NCBI GenBank assembly: GCA_963920665.1
Contig: OY987267.1
Location: forward strand, 10,478,001 to 10,542,000
Origin: Straminergon stramineum
Lineage: Eukaryota > Streptophyta > Bryopsida > Hypnales > Calliergonaceae
Direction: 5' to 3'
DNA length: 64,000 nt
The position numbers and the translations under genes were made by a program. Of the stretch, positions 27,226-61,385 are shown one piece after another. The notes beneath the pieces were generated by a model. The model did no database searches and had not been told where the DNA came from. It worked only from the letters and a program-made list of their open reading frames with translations. How positions within the stretch are numbered: position 1 is the first letter of the stretch; each line of letters opens with the position of its first letter.

Positions 27226-30200
27226 TCATGATTTTAAAGTGCCATCAAGAGTTTTTTCGTACTCTTCAATAGATTTGAAGAGCTCTGAAAAGTTTCCCTT
27301 GCCAAAGCCACCGCAACCTCCCTTCTGAACCACTACGCCAGTTTCATCCTTCTCCATGCATCCAATCCTCTGGATGATCTCTATGAATATTGTTGGTCTG
27401 GACAAAGAACACTGCTTGTTAGTAATAAATTAGGACACCTGTGAACAATTTCACATATGCCACAGTGAAAGGAACCATGGTCGTCAGCAGAAAATCTCCC
27501 AAGAACCCTATAAAAATTAACTCCCCAACATCAGAAGTTTGCCAAGGGCAAAGATGCACAAGAATTGAATTCCGAAACAACAAGAAAGTGGAAGATGGGT
27601 TCAAACGCACTTTGAGAAAATTTCCTACAAGTTGAGGCTTACTACAAAATTTTGTGACGTGACACCTCTGAACATTATTAAAACGTAAGAAATCAAATTT
27701 CAGTTTCAAGCAAAATTGATCTAAATCAAGCAAGAAAGGCAGCATCTGGAAAACGAAAACAATATTTTGTTTCGGTGAATTATTCAATATACTCACTTGA
27801 ATTGTTTTCGTTTTCGTTTTCGTCTTCAAGTGAGTATATTGAATAATTTTATTCAAGTTCATTTCAATTCACCTAATTTTGAATCCATTAAGAATAAAAC
27901 CCAAAAAAATGGGTACCATTCACGGTATTAATCGTCTACTTGCACCAATGGAAAAATTCATTAATCTAGTCAATTCAAGAGAAGGATTAATTTTAGAATT
28001 CATTCTGGTATTCACTGCAATGTCCAAACATGAATTTGTAGAAAGATCAAAAAGGTGAAAATGACTGACACAAAGAAGAAAAATGCAAAAAACCTTGCAA
28101 CCACTCAAGGGATGAATACAATTCGCTTGAAACGTGAACAAGAAAGAGAAGTAATACACAGTGCAGTGAGCGAACCTGTCACCAATAGGCTTGGTGAAGA
28201 TCTGCAACAACACGCCCTGGTCATCCTTATCCACCAGAATCCCAAGCTCGTCGCACTGTTTGACCTGTTCATCAGTGAGGATAGACCCAACCCGATTGGC
28301 CAGATTCTTGTAATAAGTAGGAGGGGGCTTCGGCATGAAGTCAAAGCCTCCAATGTGAGTACGGGTCCTCATTTCCCTCAAAGTGGTAAAGATGTCATCG
28401 CATATCAGCGCCAAATGCTGTAATCCCGGACCTTCGTTGTGCTCAAGATAAGTCTGGATCTGGGACTTCCGTTTCGTACCAAAAGTAGGCTCGTTTATAG
28501 GCAACAAAACCATTTCATTATTGCTAGCCACCACCATGCTATTCAACCCACTCTCAGTTGTGCCCACATCGTCAGCTGTAAACTCAGCAAACTCATGGAA
28601 CCCTGAGAATTTGGTGATATACTCCACAGCTTCGACAAGCTTGTGCACATTCCCGACAGCATGGTCAAGTCGCACGAGGCCATAGGTGAGAGGCAGTGAT
28701 TCCACCTCCTCGTAGTTAGGTAGCATGGGCCCCTTGTACCCTTGCTTACTCACATAGCGCAACACCACTTCCCCGTAGAGCTTCAACTCCGCCATCACCA
28801 TTTTACCACCCTTTGCATCGTCACTCAAAACATGAGGCTCCAGCACGGACACCGCTCCATTCTCAACGCTCACGCGGTACGCTTCGTCTGCGTCGTCCAC
28901 TAGGATACCCACTGCCCTTACGGCCAACCCGTGAGATTCAATGAAGCTCCGAGCCTCCTCGCTCTTGTAGCCCGGGTGAGGGATCTTCGTATTGCTCTGA
29001 TCGATCTTGGAAGAATAAGGGGCAGTGAAAGTGAACATGAGTTCATTAGACTGGATCGCGTAGCTGCAATACGTTTGGTTGCCGGTTGTCTGATCCGACT
29101 TTCCTACGAGATGCATGCCTAAACCCCATGAAAACCTTCGCCAGGTGTTTGATGCATCCCCACACCTGCAAATACAAACACGTTCTAATTAAGGTAGAGG
29201 AAACTAAAGCGTTAGGGACCTAATCCCGTGTTACCAACAGCAACTCATCTCTTCCAATACACGTATTTGGACTTCAAATAGCGATTTGAGTGTAAGAATT
29301 ACTTGACTAACTCACTCATCTTTGACTGGACCCAAGATTGTCTACTGTCACTTCAGTACTGGTCTACAACCTCCCACACTGAAAAAAATTCATACATAAG
29401 CGATAGAGATTTGATCTCGAAGGATTTGGCTCTTGTACTAAGGATATTGAAGTATCAGTCCAAATATCTCTTGGAGAAATTCATCAATCTACATGGCACA
29501 GGGATGAACACTATAGTGATGCCCGGAAAGAAGCAGAAATCACGCTAGAGCCTCATCAGGCGTCATACACATCTCAAACCCAACCAAACCCAAGAGAGTC
29601 GTATAAAATCCAGCATAATCGAAGCTCCAACATGCAACAACGCAAAATTCTACTCAACGCCGACAATACCATCTTGTGAATCCAAGACATAAACTCTCGT
29701 TAAAGCACTTCCACTAATGTGTTGCGTTCAACATTTGAAAGCAAAATCTTAAGTGCTAAATGGATAGCAGCCATCCTCAATTCCTCAGGGTTCAAGCTTT
29801 TGGTGTTACAGTAAAAAGGGTGGAACCCAATACTGCTCAAAAATGGTATGCAATGTGAAACCACTATCAGAGCCTGAATTTTTGCTTGAAAACACCAGAA
29901 ATAAAAAATTAAATATAAAAAATCCCAGCACAACGCCCTGAACGTTATGACCTGCTCCAAATTTTCTCACGAAGCAGAAAAACGATACTCTCTAGAATCG
30001 ATGCAAATGGGGAATAATATCAATAATGATAGCAGAAAAGCTAAAGGAGAACGGTTGATGCTGAAACCTTAACAAGCATCACACGCGCCTATCCAAACCA
30101 GACCGCATCTCAAACCCTATATTGCGACAAACGCAGATCGAAAGCTCCCACAACAATGGAAAAACTAAATCCACTCAAAACGCCGACAATTACCGTTCCC

Positions 30201-42684: not shown

Positions 42685-44602
42685 TTATGCGAGGATTGAA
42701 GGAGCTTCCGCAAACTCTGCCTCTCCGTCCTTCAGGTTTTGTGTTTCCGTGTCCACAACTTCCTCTTGCAAGCGGCGTGCCTTCTCCGCTTTGTGCACTG
42801 CATCCTCTTCACGACCCTTGATTGCTGATTCATGCTTCTCAATTTTCACTCCAACCTCCTGCAGCTGATTTTCCAGGTTCACAATATGTTGTTCTCTGTC
42901 ACCCAACTCACTTTCCAAACTTCCAACTCTGGCGTTCAAATCATCAACCTTGTCAGCGGAGGCCACAGCTTCATCTCTTTCTTTCCGCAAGGTGGTCAAC
43001 TTCTCTCCTAGGTCGGCCAATCGTTGGCCAGAAGACTGCAAGCCCTGATCCATTTCTCCTAACTGCGATTCCTTCTGCTTCAACTCCTCAGTGGCAGCAG
43101 TGTCTGCTTTACCCGCATTGTCTTTGACAGCATCCAAGGTTTCCTTCGTTTCCTCAGCTTCTTCGGTCTTCGTTTTCGCTTCCGCGTCTTTCTCTTCGAC
43201 CTTGGAAACTGCTCCAAACATTCTGGATTTCAAGTCTACGATTGTGGACAGCAAGCCACCTGTTTGGGTTTTGAGATCGTTAGCTTCAGTTTCGGCTATG
43301 CTTCGTTGTTCAGCTTCCGACCTAACCTCCTCACCTTCTTGTTTCACTTTCCCTTCCAGCCTTTTTTTAGTTTCCATACTGTGATCCTTGGTTGCAGAGA
43401 TCATTCTCTCCAGAGCATCAATCCTCTCCGCCAACACACGTGCGTGGGCAGCATCTTCGTTGGATTTCTTCCGTAGCTTTTCGACTTCCTCGTCTGCTGC
43501 AGTTACTCTCTCCTCAAATTTACTCCTCTGCTCTTCAGCCTCTGCCTTCACTCTGGCCGCCTTCTCCTCCTCAGTTCTCAAAGCAGCCCCCAAGCGGTTC
43601 GCTCGCGTGACGGCGTTGCGAAGCTCTTGCTGGTATTCGGCGATAGAAGCTTCCTTATGCTCGTTCACTTCGCGTTCGTGAGAAAGATCAGCTTCCACCC
43701 CACTCGCTTTCGCTGACAAGTCTCTGGCCTCTGAATCCAGATGTGAGGCTTTCTTCTCCGCTGGAATTGCTCGTGACTCAAAATGCTCAGCCTGGAACAA
43801 AACAGTAAGAAATTCAGCATTTCCGATACAATGCTCAAACACGAAGAAGTCATTCTACAACTTCAAAAGAGAGGGATGGATTGATTACCTTAGAGGACAG
43901 CTCTTCAACCGCAATATTCTTCTCGACCAGCCTTCTTTTTAACGTTTCCTCTTTTGTGGCAAGTTCCTCATCCAAATTCCGCAGCTTCACTTCCCGATCG
44001 TGTACAGTTGGCTTCAGACGATCGAGATCCGCTTTCAGATTCGCATTGCTGTGCTCAGCATTCTTCAGCTTCGTCTCCAACTCCTTGATGGCACTCTTAT
44101 TCCTATCCTCGACATTCTTCAATTTCAACTCCAGCTCCGCGGCCTTCTCACCAGCAGCTTGAACGTTCTTTTTCATCTCCACGTTCTCTTTCTCAAGGAC
44201 GTCAATTTTCTGCTTTCGCTCTCTCGTCACTTTGTTCGCCTTCTCAGTCTCACGATTTGCTAATTGAAATGCTTCCTCACAGTCTTTCAATTGCACTCTA
44301 AGCTTGGAATTTTCATTTTTCAAGGTTTTAATTTCCTGCAGCAGCGCAAATTCCTGTTATAATCGAACACGACGCAGCTTAATTGGAGCTATCTTAGATG
44401 TACTTCTACTAGTCCCTAGTAATTTCAGTTCAAGATGTCAGGGCACAGTCATTACCTCTTCCGCTTTCTCGCCAACTTTGGAAGGAACAACGGCCTGCGC
44501 GGTAACGACGGAGCTTTTATCATGTCCACCTCCAACGTAATCCTGTACTTCCTTAGCACGACTCTCCAAGCTCTCCTTGACAGCAGTCTCCTGGCTCGCC
44601 AT
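42685..44602 (-). CDS. Long coiled-coil protein of unknown function
   Basis: Three exons (44456-44602, 43889-44335, 42685-43791), all phase 0, encode 566 residues. The first ~45 residues (MASQETAVKESLESRAKEVQ onward) contain a glycine stretch DYVGGGHDKSS. From about residue 50 almost to the end the protein is Glu/Lys/Ala-rich heptad sequence, for example LKDCEEAFQLANRETEKAN and LENQLQEVGVKIEKHE, with few prolines, so it should be one long helical coiled coil. It ends AEFAEAPSILA. No signal peptide, membrane segment or enzyme motif is visible. Weak resemblance to myosin-tail or filament-like plant proteins is compositional and not proof of descent. The start is the only ATG in exon 1. Confidence 0.8.
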
Positions 44603-55631: not shown

Positions 55632-58600
55632 TCAATTCAGTGGTACTGATACAGGCCCTGTTCGTTTGGGTGGGCGTTCCACAAGAAGCGGTGGATCCAA
55701 ACTATCGTCCTCCCACCATTGCAAGGTCGATAGATCCGGAGAGGATTGTGCGGAAGAGACTCGTGAATGATCACCTCGTGTTCCGAAGTCTTGTAAAAGC
55801 TCCTCAGGAATGGGTTGGCTGCCTTCCAGCATGGGAATCAGTTGTGAGATGGGTGGCCGGATTGAAGGACTATCTGTTGTGCACAGGAGAGCCACCTTGA
55901 AGACCCGCGCCGCTTCTGCTCTTTCGAAGTTGCCAGACAATCTTGAGTCCACATGACGCAGCAGGAGCTCTTCGTCGCTTGATTCGCAGGATCGAAGGTA
56001 TGCACTCCTTATCTGCACGTGAGAAGCGCTTAAGTCAGAACGTAAACTTGCAAGTTCCACCAGTTTGGGGTAATCCCTCAAAACATGTCGTTGCTTTATA
56101 GTACTGAGCACAACCATTACAACTGTAACAACTTGGATCTTCAAAATGTAAGCTCACCTCATCCAGGAGGAAGCACATATTTCCGGAGAGACTGCGAGTT
56201 GTGGTTATCTTTCCCGTCACAATTTCCATCAAAAGTATGCCGTAGCTGAAAACGTCCACCTTCTCGGTTAACTCACCACACATGATGTATTCTGGTGCCA
56301 TGTAACCCCTGCAATCAGGAACACCTCAAAAATGAATATGAATACATCGTAACAGCCAACAGATACCGAGTGAACTAGAGGCATTGCATGTGAAAACATT
56401 TGTATCAGTCTACAAGAAACTTCAAAATTGCACCGACAATTTACACTTCATATTGCAACCCAGGTGCATACTAGCTCTCCAACACAAGACACCAGCATGT
56501 GCAACAAGAATTCAATTGTCTTCATTACAGTTTCATTTTCACATGAGGTTTTCAGCGCTTACATAGTGCCAACGAGATTTGTAGTAAAGTTCGTGTTGTC
56601 ATCAGGACACAGCTTCACCAGTCCAAAGTCCGCAATTTTGGCATCGAACTTGGAATTGAGCAGAACGTTGCTGGCTTTAATATCCCCATGTATAATCTGA
56701 GAGTGAAGATCATTGTGCAAATATTGCAAACCTCGAGCAGTTTGAGTGGCAATTTTGTAGCGTGTGGGCCAATCAATGCGTTCAGCGTCGATTGAGCTAC
56801 CTGCAAACAGTATTGCCCAAGTACATCAATTAGGTCTCACTAAACCTTTGGGAGCGCACTATGTGTATTGTATGAATACTAGGTACCAAGGAGACTAAAT
56901 GTAATACACATACTCCTAGAAATGCACTCCCATTGTATACATGTTCTTCAAGTTGACTAACAATATCCTATTTAATTCTAGATAGATAATAAATACTATT
57001 TTGAAAAACAAGGCAGACACTATGTTTTATCAAGCCTCGTTTCGAGAAATTTGAAATTGCAAATCCCGAGAACCAACCCAACAACGTGACAATCAAAACT
57101 TCGCAAGCTTTTGTAGCTTTCCACAAGACCAAAGCTAAGAGATGAAGCATAATTACCAAGAAGTGTTTGACGAAGGCTCCTCTTCTCCAGATACTCGTAG
57201 ACCAGGAGTCTGTGCTTTCCCTCCACACAGAACCCACGTAATTTGACAAGGCTCTCGTGCTGCACCTTGCTAATGTTAATAACCTCTGCAAGAAACTCAC
57301 GCTTTCCTTGCCTCGAACGATTCGTAAGCTTTTTCACTGCCACTTGCGAACCATCCTTGTTTCGCCCCTGTCATAATGTAACAACGCAATTTAACCCTGA
57401 AGGAATTAAGTATTCATGGTTCGAAAATGACCACTTTCATTGATCATATTGTGAAAAATAGACCTCAGATAGGGCCATATTTTATGTTCACCAGAATCAG
57501 CGAAGAACATTGCATGCGTTGAATACAGAGATAATGAATATTGAACAAAAGAAAGTGTTATTCCCGAATGAACTACTCAAAAGTGTTGAAAAGAAAATGA
57601 GACCCAATTTGGGCCACTTGGTCTGTTCGCGGTTAATGGTTCGCGTGCGTAGAAATGAAGGAAATGAAGAAAAAACCACATGCACTCTTCCATTCCCAAG
57701 TGACATCTTCTGAAGTAAACCAATATACTTCAACATCAGTTTACAAAATCAAAACCATGGTGTATTATTGGTGAGCCTTACCAGATACACTTCTCCAATT
57801 CCACCCTCCCCAAGTTTATTGTCTCTGTGAAAGTTGCGAGTCGCGACTTTGAGTTCTTTGTACGTGTACAAATAAGTCGATAAGGATGCTTTCGCAAAAT
57901 CTGTCCAAAAGCGAGCATACCATAAGGAGGGAGAAATCATTAGCACATGATTCTTCAATTCCCAAAGTCAAGACGGCATGATAGATGAACAAATTCATAA
58001 AGGGTGTGTGTAAGTAGCGCCACTCTTCATTTCTATTTAGTGTCATCCGTCAAATAATGTGCCACTTATTTAGCAAGCCTTGCGCTGATTCAAATTCTTA
58101 AAAAAATTAAGTACCACGTAGCCATTTTCTTTTCAACTTAGTGGTCTGACCTAAGCACTTCAATGCATATCACTAGGACCACACAATCTATTTGCGAAAT
58201 GGTGTTGCCCGGTCATAGCTACACTATTTGAAGGTGCTTGTATCAGCATCAAACCTACAAAATAGAATCATACACAAGATATAATAAGCAGTGTACCTTC
58301 TTTCATCCTGCGAACAGGTGATCGGGCTGCCACACACTGAAACGCTAGACACGCCACCAGGAACAGAAGAAGAAGAAATATCCCAGCACCTCCCAACCCC
58401 AGATATAACCGCAGTCGGCTTTCCTTTCCATCCCTTCTTCCACAAGAATTGCAGCAAAGGCTCGTCTTATACACCAACGCAGGAGACTGGCCAACAAATA
58501 TGCTCTGTTCGCACAAAGGCCGTAACCCAGGTTCCACAAGCTTCACGCACTGGCTGAGATTGACCTGCGACATTATTCAAAGATCCATGCTTCAGGAATA

Positions 58601-61385
58601 GAGCCAAAGCTGCAGTACTTGGCCGATAATTAATACCGCTTCTGTAGCTTCTTAGTCAGAACTCTAACCGGTCGGGGTGCATATCAAAACTTCCCGCTGA
58701 ATAGCAAAACTAATAGGCTGTCAACACGCACACTTTGAAAAATAAGCTTGCCTGATGCAACTGGCAGGTCAAGGGAATTGCAGGTACGTTTGGATCCACG
58801 TATTTCTGCTTGATAATATTCTCGTCGGTGTAGTTCACCGACACATCGATAGATGCAACGCCATACAAGGTTCCGTTCTTGAATACTGCCCACAAATACC
58901 AGTCAAGATGAACAACTTTTGGTTGTACGAGTGACGATGAACTGATCATTCAGAATTTCTCCGTGATACTAGAATTGCTCAGTGATACTTAATCCATTAA
59001 GGATCAGGAAGACCAAATTGGGCGTCACGATTTTTTTCAGCACTTTCGAGTAGACCATACGTGGACCTCCTTTTGTTTAATTTTCAATTTCCCTTTTTTA
59101 CCCAACACACGCAATGTTCTTCACTGAATTTGGAGGATATAAAAGTCGATTGATTCTGAAGTTTACTCTTCACAATATTGTCAATGAAACTGGTCATTAT
59201 AAACCACAAAACTCGGTCCTTTAGGGCTTGATGCACGTACCTGGATAACTCACGGTAGAGACGTTGCCCTGACCATTGACGCTTCCATAAACATCTGTCC
59301 AGAACGTGACATTTTCCTTGAACCGCATTGTGGCCTGGTAATCGAAGTAAGGGCGAATGGCCCACAGGGGATTTCGAACGGCATCCTGGGTATTCGTGTA
59401 AGTGACCGAGCTGTTCAATCGACAGGAGAATTTCCGCAAATCTGCAAGGGGATCCGGGATGGTCTCTCCATCCCCGGGACCTAAACTGAAAAAGAAAACA
59501 ACCACACCCTCCGAATTCAGAAGCGACACCGCCTTTTGAAATGCTCTACTTGAGAGGTTCCCAGCATTGGAGAAGTAGCCGTCGGTCACCACCACTATTA
59601 TCTGTCAAACCAAAAAGACTAGGTCACAAACTAGACGAAGAAATTGATCACACATGATCTCCAATTGTTCACAGAAAATTGCAAACCCTAAAAGCTTGAT
59701 TGCCGCATACAGGGAGCACCGTTGGGTAATCTAGGTTGTGTATATCTCTCTGTACACAGGAATGTATGACGAAGTTTGAAGAGGTACTTTAAGTTTACTT
59801 GATGAGTTGAAGGTGGTCATTGCTCGCTCAAATCCCAGGCTAAGATTCGAGAATCCTTTAGGGTTGTTCACCAAGGATGGAATGTCGAACGAAGAATGCA
59901 CGTCTGCACTGCTTCTGGCAAGAACCTACAAATTCGAGGCGCCACAAATGCATCATAAGCACTACTATCAACACTTTCCAATTTAGATTACCGAAAGAAA
60001 CTGCGCACAATTTGAAGATCAAGCTGCGAACTACTTAGGGTTTTACTGTTTTGATGAAGCGAAGAGAACAAGTACCGATGTCGGTTGCAACAGCGTTGCC
60101 CTCGTGGAGTCAAATGTAACCACATTGACAGAGTCGGCAGCAGTAAATGTGTCGAAAAGCTCTGTGACAACGTTCGTCGCCGCAATAAACGTTGCATTGT
60201 GTTGCTGTCCATTGTCGAGTAGCACCACTAGGTCTTTCACAACCGATGTCGACAACACGTACCTGCGTTGCAAAGAGAAACCTGTCACGATGACCAACAT
60301 TCTTAATGCTAGGGTTACGAAATGCAAAACTTTGTTCCAACACTCACCAAGGTTGTTTCCGAGGGTCAAAATTGTAACAGTCCCCATCTGGATTCGCTGC
60401 CTGCAAACACAGGTTGGGAAATACCCAGCTTAGAAAATGAACCTTGACATTGTACTCGTTTGGAAGAAAAATTTATGGATTGCGAGCAGCCTCAGATACT
60501 TACTCGACCTGGAAAGGCTCGATACACACCCTCGGCGGACGCAAACGCAACGCTCCGATCAGCAACAACACTACCACCACTAGCAGCAAATTGAAGAGTC
60601 GAGTACGTGCAGATGGATCGCGTAATCTCTGAACTCAAATTCGAATTTGCGGCGTTTCTGAAATACGGCGGGAGCCTGCAGTCGAAGAACAATGAGCGCT
60701 CGTGGCAGATAAATGAAAAGCCTATGGAGACAGAGACTGGCAGTACGCGTATCCTCTAGGTCACTGAGAAAGTGATGATAGTAGTTCCCTTCCAATGACA
60801 GAAGAATTTACTCGCACGGTTGAAATTATGAGCGTGTACCTGACAAACCCAGTCCCTCCGAAATCCAATTGAATTCCCTCGCACGATTCAGAGTTAAACT
60901 GGCAATCCGAAACTGGTCCTCGCGTCCCAGCGCAGGTGAAATTGTCTTTCGCAGTTGGCGTACATGCGTGCCGAGAGCAGGTTCGCACGCACTGGGACAG
61001 ACCTGAAAACCAAGCAAGACGCCAAATGATAAAAAAATCGGCCCAAATTCAGGCACAATGCAACAGAAACGACTGTCTCACCCGAAGGGAAATTCCGACA
61101 TGCTCCCGTAGTTACAGAATCGATAGGAAAAAGAGAAAAACAACCACAAAGAATTTTGAACGCATTCTTTTCCCAGTATATAGATACAGTACCGCAGTCT
61201 TCTCTATCAAGAGCTAACCGGAGGGCGTCACTGGCAAGAAGCCGCACTTTATTCTCCTCGGCCCCTAAATACGCCTCCAGGGAAGAATCTGCAGCCGCCG
61301 TCGCCGCCGCGTCGACGTCGTCGCCTATCCATGACATAAGCAGCAGAAACGATTGCAACACCAGCCCCCACTTGAGCTTGTCCAT
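55632..61385 (-). CDS. Receptor kinase with alpha2delta-like VWA/Cache ectodomain
   Basis: Fourteen exons close in phase to 922 residues: 61193-61385, 60840-61002, 60504-60675, 60348-60400, 60076-60262, 59788-59925, 59241-59601, 58752-58885, 58297-58564, 57782-57900, 57157-57367, 56563-56800, 56158-56308, 55632-56012. A signal peptide (1 to about 27) leads into a Cys-rich segment (65-115) and a region ending FDPRKQPWY (about 187-195). A VWA fold follows (KDLVVLLD near 203-210; VVVTDGYF near 306-312). A Cache-like part comes next ([10 protein letters not shown] near 383, [10 protein letters not shown] near 399, [11 protein letters not shown] near 429-439), then a membrane helix (about 521-543) and a kinase. 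The order and the PWY-to-VWA junction match animal alpha2delta/CACHD1. The kinase resembles plant Pelle/IRAK types: GEGGIGEV, Lys608, Glu624, HGD (704-706), DFG (724-726), MAPEY. It probably senses an extracellular ligand at the plasma membrane; the ligand is unknown. Confidence 0.88.
58993..59227. mobile_element. Decayed TTAA element in intron 7 of the receptor kinase
   Basis: TTAA (58989-58992) then TCCATTAAGGATC at the left, and GGTCCTTTAGGGC then TTGA at the right. It makes up most of this 355-bp intron (58886-59240). Confidence 0.45.

Follow-up and report, generated by a model that had tools for sequence, protein, structure and literature searches.

The locus raises the question of whether a single plant gene can join an ectodomain of the animal calcium-channel α2δ/CACHD1 type to a plant receptor-like kinase (RLK), and what such a receptor might sense. 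The window, that is, the whole 64,000-nucleotide stretch of Straminergon stramineum DNA that was analysed, carries the gene on its minus strand. Fourteen exons joining without a frame break into 922 residues had been proposed in the preliminary description, and this was reproduced when the gene model was rebuilt by script: the coding length is 2,769 bases with the stop codon, and every junction is in phase. Twelve introns are GT-AG and one, after exon 8, is GC-AG; they measure 85-414 bases each and 2,985 bases in total. The features of the gene are as follows.

55632..61385, minus strand: whole gene, 14 exons, 922 amino acids (scripted gene-model rebuild and homologues)
61385-61193, 61002-60840, 60675-60504, 60400-60348, 60262-60076, 59925-59788, 59601-59241, 58885-58752, 58564-58297, 57900-57782, 57367-57157, 56800-56563, 56308-56158, 56012-55632, minus strand: exons 1-14
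61308..61385, minus strand: signal peptide, approximately residues 1-26 (hydrophobic stretch; boundary inferred)
60238..61208, minus strand: Cys-rich segment and first dCache half, residues ~60-202, interrupted by introns (conserved Cys; fold match)
60348..60367, minus strand: DPRKQPWY, final codons of exon 4, finished in exon 5 at 60262-60259
59383..60237, minus strand: VWA domain, residues ~203-375, exons 5-7 (Pfam profile, alignment, fold)
58803..59382, minus strand: second dCache half, residues ~376-450, with motif Tyr407 and Asp436
58343..58411, minus strand: membrane helix, residues ~519-541 (hydropathy)
55836..57832, minus strand: RLK/Pelle kinase domain, residues 580-855, exons 10-14
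56682..56690, minus strand: catalytic-loop HGD, residues 704-706, non-RD

The exon 1/2 junction was backed by 8 of 11 homologues, the three junctions after it by 10 of 11 each, and all remaining ones, the GC-AG one included, by 11 of 11. The exceptions at exon 1/2 were P0003 and P0004, which have a different exon 1 (the first ~28 residues of P0004 gave no match to exon 1), and P0011, which begins later. A 958-residue form using an alternative exon 2/3 junction was rejected, its 36 extra residues being missing in all 10 homologues that cover the place. At exons 9/10, where a split had been named beforehand as the sign of two genes, the homologous proteins run on unsplit. The greater unusualness of the ectodomain relative to the kinase could suggest two adjacent genes. 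However, both parts, the kinase included, are present in all 11 homologues of the first protein search, and the exon 9/10 junction keeps the frame, exon 9 itself encoding the neck and membrane helix. Moreover, the contigs behind P0004 (888 residues, encoded by 2,667 bases) are no longer than 2,790 bases, too short for introns of the window-gene kind, and P0004 therefore has the counterparts of exons 2-14 on one intron-free sequence. Given the homologues and this contig size, the two-gene reading was rejected as hardly credible.

The product is a single-pass moss receptor kinase, with a dCache ectodomain into which a VWA domain is inserted and a kinase of the RLK/Pelle type. It shows the receptor-kinase layout of that class: a predicted signal peptide, an ectodomain, one membrane helix (by hydropathy only) and a kinase. 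Profiles, hydropathy and fold agree with the order of parts claimed earlier, except that the "junction" and the "Cache-like region" are better described as the two halves of one dCache around the inserted VWA. The VWA/Cache order is supported by profile and, in two homologues, by fold. The window protein matched Pkinase (E 5.6e-46) and VWA_2 (E 2.5e-6, 28.5 bits, cut-off 27); the Cache-clan model MCP-like_PDC_1 gave E 1.2e-3, below that model's cut-off, and Pfam dCache_1 gave no match. Eight Cys at residues 69-184 are kept in all 11 rows covering them, and a CC..C neck (Cys463-508) sits before the membrane helix.

Homologue, profile and fold searches together support the earlier claim that an ectodomain of the α2δ/CACHD1 type sits on a plant RLK, and they show it to be conserved in mosses. 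α2δ-1 was the best solved match by profile and by fold; the profile match spans both Cache halves (E 3e-24), and in both proteins the VWA splits the dCache at the identical site, directly after the PWY of the RxxPWY sensor motif. The structure models were those of two homologues of the window protein, with mean pLDDT of 48.0 and 52.5 and mostly below 50 in the first Cache half. As the preliminary description had expected of VWA and Cache folds, they match α2δ-1 over VWA and dCache together, at low overall confidence; the match starts at the N-terminal helix of the Cys-rich/first dCache half, where model confidence is low. Foldseek TM-scores were just 0.21-0.28, a consequence of the large unmatched part of each chain, identity in the best fold alignments was 21-25%, and the 11 α2δ-1 entries matched represent one protein, not independent matches. 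In the first Foldseek search the P0001 model gave only kinases among the best 50 matches listed, and its α2δ match was found on a second look. The profile search against solved structures (E up to 1) did not list CACHD1, which was found by single-sequence search (E 4e-4) and by fold.

α2δ-1 and CACHD1 each have two dCache domains and no kinase, whereas the moss protein has one dCache, with Gln for the pocket Arg; a second dCache is absent from the window protein, where only ~70 residues separate the dCache from the membrane helix. The VWA metal site reads DNGQQ in the window protein instead of DxSxS, and DxGxx in all 12 rows, being degenerate throughout clades A-C of the family described below. 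In contrast, α2δ-1 and α2δ-2 are reported to have an intact MIDAS, which in α2δ-1 contacts the channel (PMC9901441). CACHD1 is described as interacting with Wnt receptors (PMC7615972) and as acting on CaV2.2 despite a disrupted MIDAS (PMC6231325).

Because the moss metal site is not intact, channel binding in the α2δ-1 manner is not implied. A receptor that behaves like animal α2δ, as a subunit that binds a channel and carries its kinase incidentally, would account for the shared layout and the best structural match, but it fits poorly with one dCache instead of two, with the membrane helix and kinase that come after the ectodomain, and with the altered MIDAS, although CACHD1 works with a disrupted one. 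Land plants are also not known to have a classical CaV channel, and we regard this possibility as very unlikely. The moss receptor kinases further bear on the source of the α2δ module. Independent origin of the VWA-in-dCache layout in mosses and animals would be consistent with the low identity to α2δ-1, with the absence of CACHD1 from the profile list, and with the failure to find bridging relatives in bacterial genomes. The last point comes from a narrow test with two short patterns, which seven stretches in genome contigs fitted, none of them confirmed. Convergence is nevertheless improbable given the shared insertion site and the match through both Cache halves; P0015, a 621-residue protein with dCache_1 and VWA_N, also counts against it through a weak profile match (E 1.6e-3).

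Named matches in three protein searches (two scoring only the ~8,000 candidates with the most shared words, the other with 6,863 candidates) came from Ceratodon purpureus and Physcomitrium patens only. Seven loci in the host genome encode this ectodomain family: five carry the kinase type of the window gene, including one that contains a stop; a sixth has a different kinase and the seventh has none. Within the window, tblastn with the 11 homologues gave no second copy; the tandem copy lies outside it. Clades A and C combine a complete amino-acid-binding motif with an HRD kinase. In clade B, to which the window gene belongs, the pocket R→Q and catalytic-loop R→G changes occur in all 5 proteins. 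Both changes fall on a single branch and therefore count as one joint event, not as a correlation. In the ectodomain tree, which has one very long outgroup branch, clade B appears derived (support 87/85). A single fusion for A-C is not firm, since the support of this group in the wider kinase tree is only 76/83.

The dCache_1AA motif, reportedly defined in an earlier paper, is given by two later ones as Y-x4-R-x-W-Y...Y...D. The window pocket (F187, Q192, W194, Y195, Y407, D436) has 4 of these 6 residues and is thus incomplete, Gln192 of DPRKQPWY standing at the position of the amino-acid-binding Arg in clades A and C, where the six rows covering the site have all six. The kinase-less relative P0013 also keeps the sensor motif in its sequence. 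PctA and PctB, bacterial dCache_1AA amino-acid chemoreceptors, share the motif with clades A and C and gave a weak profile match; they differ in having no VWA and a chemotaxis output, and the window copy is without the motif Arg. As judged from sequence, an amino-acid sensor would fit the sister clades better than the window gene, whose pocket Arg is Gln. Gln is the residue type used near the pocket-Arg place by an amine-binding dCache receptor.

These residues bear on two further readings. The protein could be mainly an adhesion or matrix receptor, with the VWA gripping the wall or an extracellular protein and the dCache as a structural spacer. In favour of this are the adhesion fold of the VWA, the strong conservation of the Cys framework, and the fact that clade B retained its VWA while losing the pocket Arg; yet the degenerate metal site in every row and the retention of all six pocket residues in clades A and C make this rather unlikely. 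Alternatively, clade B could be a side branch that is decaying or consists of pseudokinases and does little by itself. In addition to the loss of both Arg residues, two of its five proteins have Gly for the pocket Trp, one has His for the second-half Tyr and three have Asp for the helix-C Glu, and its stem in the kinase tree is long (0.43). However, the catalytic Lys, catalytic Asp, Asn and DFG Asp are present in all five, as in all 12 rows of the family, the frame is open in the window and in the four database sequences, and end branches within B resemble those within A. We give this second reading little credence.

Our preferred reading, with a probability of roughly 0.6, is that the family comprises putative small-ligand receptor kinases in which a VWA-in-dCache ectodomain sits on an RLK/Pelle kinase, the window copy being a re-specialised non-RD paralogue. 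The full amino-acid-binding motif and an HRD kinase would both have been present in the ancestor. Binding of a small ligand resembling an amino acid in the dCache pocket, perhaps joined by a protein that docks on the VWA face, would alter receptor pairing and thereby switch on the cytoplasmic kinase. In clade B, Gln replaced the putative ligand-carboxylate Arg and the kinase turned non-RD, and the ligand specificity was most likely changed or lost. Immune receptors of the non-RD kind work together with co-receptors of the SERK type, and by analogy the clade B copy would most likely signal with an RD relative. An extension of this reading, which we offer only tentatively and consider somewhat doubtful, is that mosses took the VWA-in-dCache amino-acid sensor that formed α2δ/CACHD1 as a receptor-kinase ectodomain on two occasions, each with a different kinase. 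The first plant receptor kinases to sense extracellular amino acids would then be those of clades A and C, and clade B would be a re-tuned non-RD partner moved by R to Q to another ligand such as betaine or an amine.

The preliminary description knew of no plant receptor of this layout, and none was found by full-text search of one open library, most subscription papers being outside its scope. A published survey limited plant Cache domains to histidine kinases, which the moss family contradicts. On term look-up, the main text of a survey covering 177,645 plant RLKs (PMC10834447) contained neither Cache nor VWA, and the text of a second survey (PMC3310802) gave the same result, so that the moss family adds an ectodomain class to the plant RLKs surveyed. 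AHK1 and the cytokinin receptors, described as Cache/CHASE histidine kinases with an extracellular Cache-clan sensor (PMC6944256, PMC4822843), share that sensor, but differ by their histidine kinase output and have no VWA. With a gabapentin-type pocket wired to a kinase in a plant system, a direct readout of ligand binding would be possible, and the clade A/B pair is a natural test of the roles of the pocket Arg and the HRD Arg.

As to the kinase itself, the nearest solved structure is BAK1 (E 8e-68). The window kinase has HGD in place of HRD and is not of the RD type; HRD is not required of RLK/Pelle kinases, which include a known non-RD sub-type. Among the other kinases of the host genome, the highest score went to an L-type lectin receptor kinase, which scores E 3.6e-39 for the legume-lectin domain. 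Neither the window protein nor any of six scanned relatives matched this domain, and the moss VWA-dCache family differs from plant L-type lectin receptor kinases in having no lectin domain. One Physcomitrium member bears the NCBI name "L-type lectin-domain containing receptor kinase IX.1-like".

The receptor kinase gene of the window was modelled as follows:

61385 to 55632, minus strand: receptor kinase gene, 14 exons with in-phase joins, 922 residues

The splice sites are GT-AG at twelve of its introns and GC-AG at the one that follows exon 8, with intron lengths of 85-414 bases. The preliminary description had proposed 14 exons without a frame break and 922 residues; this model was confirmed, and its junctions are also backed by homologues. 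The exon 1/2 junction was backed by 8 of 11 homologues, the exceptions being P0003 and P0004, which have a different exon 1, and P0011, which begins later. Backing came from 10/11 for the next three junctions and from all 11 for the remaining ones, including CQLHQ/VNLSQC at the GC-AG intron. A 958-residue variant, using an alternative exon 2/3 junction, was disfavoured because the homologues back the 922-residue model.

A first protein search, with residues 60-515 of the window protein as the scored part and 7,981 candidates scored, returned 11 proteins at the cut-off of E <= 1e-3. Kinase domains were found in all 11, bearing out the proposal that ectodomain and kinase lie in one protein. The homologues include P0003, P0006, P0007 and P0008 from Ceratodon purpureus, and P0005 and P0010 from Physcomitrium patens, to which P0012 was added by a later protein search. 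Their relatedness to the window protein suggests that the window is moss DNA. P0004 has 888 residues and its source contigs do not exceed 2,790 bases, so that everything corresponding to exons 2-14 sits in a single sequence without introns; judged from this length, the source is probably assembled RNA. The Ceratodon clade C member P0007 (KC19_VG339300) may be located on the V sex chromosome, as suggested by its locus tag only. P0005 is named 'L-type lectin-domain containing receptor kinase IX.1-like' in the database. No lectin domain was found in the window protein and six scanned relatives (P0005 not among the six) or in the precomputed domain list of P0005, and the name looks like a kinase-based misnomer.

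Trees were built from 13 ectodomain rows and 12 kinase rows. Clades A, B and C each formed a single group in both, which fits one fusion before the three clades split. However, the A-C group as a whole had only 76/83 support after five more kinases were added to the kinase tree. The ectodomain tree was rooted by P0013, a protein of 534 residues from a eukaryotic transcript set, which lies on a very long branch. It lacks a kinase but has YDPRKRPWY, most of the family's Cys framework, a VWA start, dCache, a CCxxC neck and a membrane helix.

The dCache amino-acid motif described in two papers has two parts, Y-R-W-Y from the first half of the Cache domain and Y...D from the second half; in PctA its residues are Y121, R126, W128, Y129 and Y144, closed by D173, and in α2δ-1 the motif is split by the VWA domain and its Arg is the third of RRR (PMC10104139, PMC9901441). 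Profile alignment set YDPRKRPWY of the family on YDVRRRPWY of α2δ-1, and the family's later Tyr on VYLD of the same protein. The final Asp lies outside the span of this alignment, and we take the family's Asp to match it from the dCache pattern. The residues Y, R, W, Y, Y and D are all present in the 6/6 clade A and C rows covering the site. The window protein has F187, Q192, W194, Y195, Y407 and D436. Gln replaces Arg in 5/5 clade B rows, with Gly for Trp in two of these and His for the second Tyr in one. The same five rows have HGD for HRD in the catalytic loop, and HRD is found in 7/7 clade A and C rows; Lys608, Asp706, Asn711 and Asp724 are kept in 12/12. Since the pocket and kinase changes fall on one branch, their association counts as a single event. 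The VWA metal motif is intact in α2δ-1, whereas it is DxGxx in 12/12 rows here.

Direct observation covers the domain layout and its conservation, the state of each motif and the catalytic residues that are kept. By analogy with the families named here, the dCache pocket would bind a small molecule, and the receptor would signal by ligand-driven pairing, as plant RLKs do. Our best reading is that the family represents putative small-ligand receptor kinases, with an amino-acid-like ligand in clades A and C, and that clade B, to which the window gene belongs, has been re-specialised in both pocket and kinase. In PacA, a dCache receptor for amines, the residue that best corresponds to the motif Arg is a Gln, and this Gln binds betaine (PMC10104139). 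This led to a bolder and rather doubtful reading, in which the Arg-to-Gln change moved the clade B pocket to a betaine- or amine-type ligand.

The host genome (a 326-Mb assembly of 59 contigs, in which the window is C5:10478001-10542000) was queried with a clade C ectodomain. Besides the window gene itself, six other loci were recovered:

About C5:10548129-10555750, same strand as the window gene and some 8.7 kb 5' of it: clade A tandem copy (L009+L010)
C7, 4.07 Mb: second clade A copy
C3, 43.07 Mb: copy nearest clade C, HRD kinase
C10, 7.13 Mb: copy nearest clade C, HRD kinase
C9, 15.14 Mb (C9:15139001-15149000): divergent VWA-Cache ectodomain locus L020
C6, 14.41-14.42 Mb (C6:14409001-14419000): divergent kinase-less locus L021

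The tandem copy has YDPRKRPWY and HRD and, in this assembly, an in-frame stop in the Cys-rich exon; it may be a pseudogene or reflect a sequence error. From locus tags and clades, the B and A pair is mirrored in Ceratodon by KC19_2G134200 (P0003, clade B) and KC19_2G134300 (P0006, clade A). At L020, ectodomain stretches matching P0013 at E 6e-15, one of them above the cut-off of a Cache-clan model (28.2 bits versus 27), are followed by a membrane helix and, beyond it, by a kinase that occupies one open frame. The nearest solved kinase is FERONIA (192 bits) for L020 and BAK1 (232 bits) for the window gene. The L020 kinase is 28-41% identical to the family kinases. In an unrooted tree with the 12 family kinases and four other host kinases, its end branch is 3.3 changes per column long. 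These data suggest either that the kinase was exchanged or that a second fusion took place independently, although the gene model across the last intron is putative and the branch is long. L021 has ectodomain stretches with the motif YDPRNRPWF and the VWA site DLAAS, and ends in a CCGAC neck, a membrane helix, a short tail and a stop; no kinase match was found at the locus or in the 10 kb that follow. Kinase-less and kinase-bearing forms thus occur together in one genome.

All features tested place the window protein among the RLKs, in the non-RD sub-type. An α2δ subunit is excluded, as the protein has one dCache and a degenerate metal site (MIDAS), and the window copy as it stands does not match a dCache_1AA sensor. 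According to an α2δ review, no animal proteins other than α2δ and Cachd1 have dCache (PMC9901441), and the terms Cache, VWA and Willebrand had no match in the main text of an RLK survey (PMC10834447). A full-text literature search, covering few subscription papers, found no description of such a receptor type, in line with the earlier statement that the writer knew of no described plant receptor with this layout. The original observation holds: the receptor-kinase class is real and conserved, and apparently undescribed.

Other open frames were noted on the minus strand of the window. Two adjoining long frames at 42688-44356 appeared coiled-coil-like by eye and had no match in a Pfam search. 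A single open frame of 422 codons at 27923-29188 matched the glyoxalase/dioxygenase superfamily, and by eye resembles 4-hydroxyphenylpyruvate dioxygenase.
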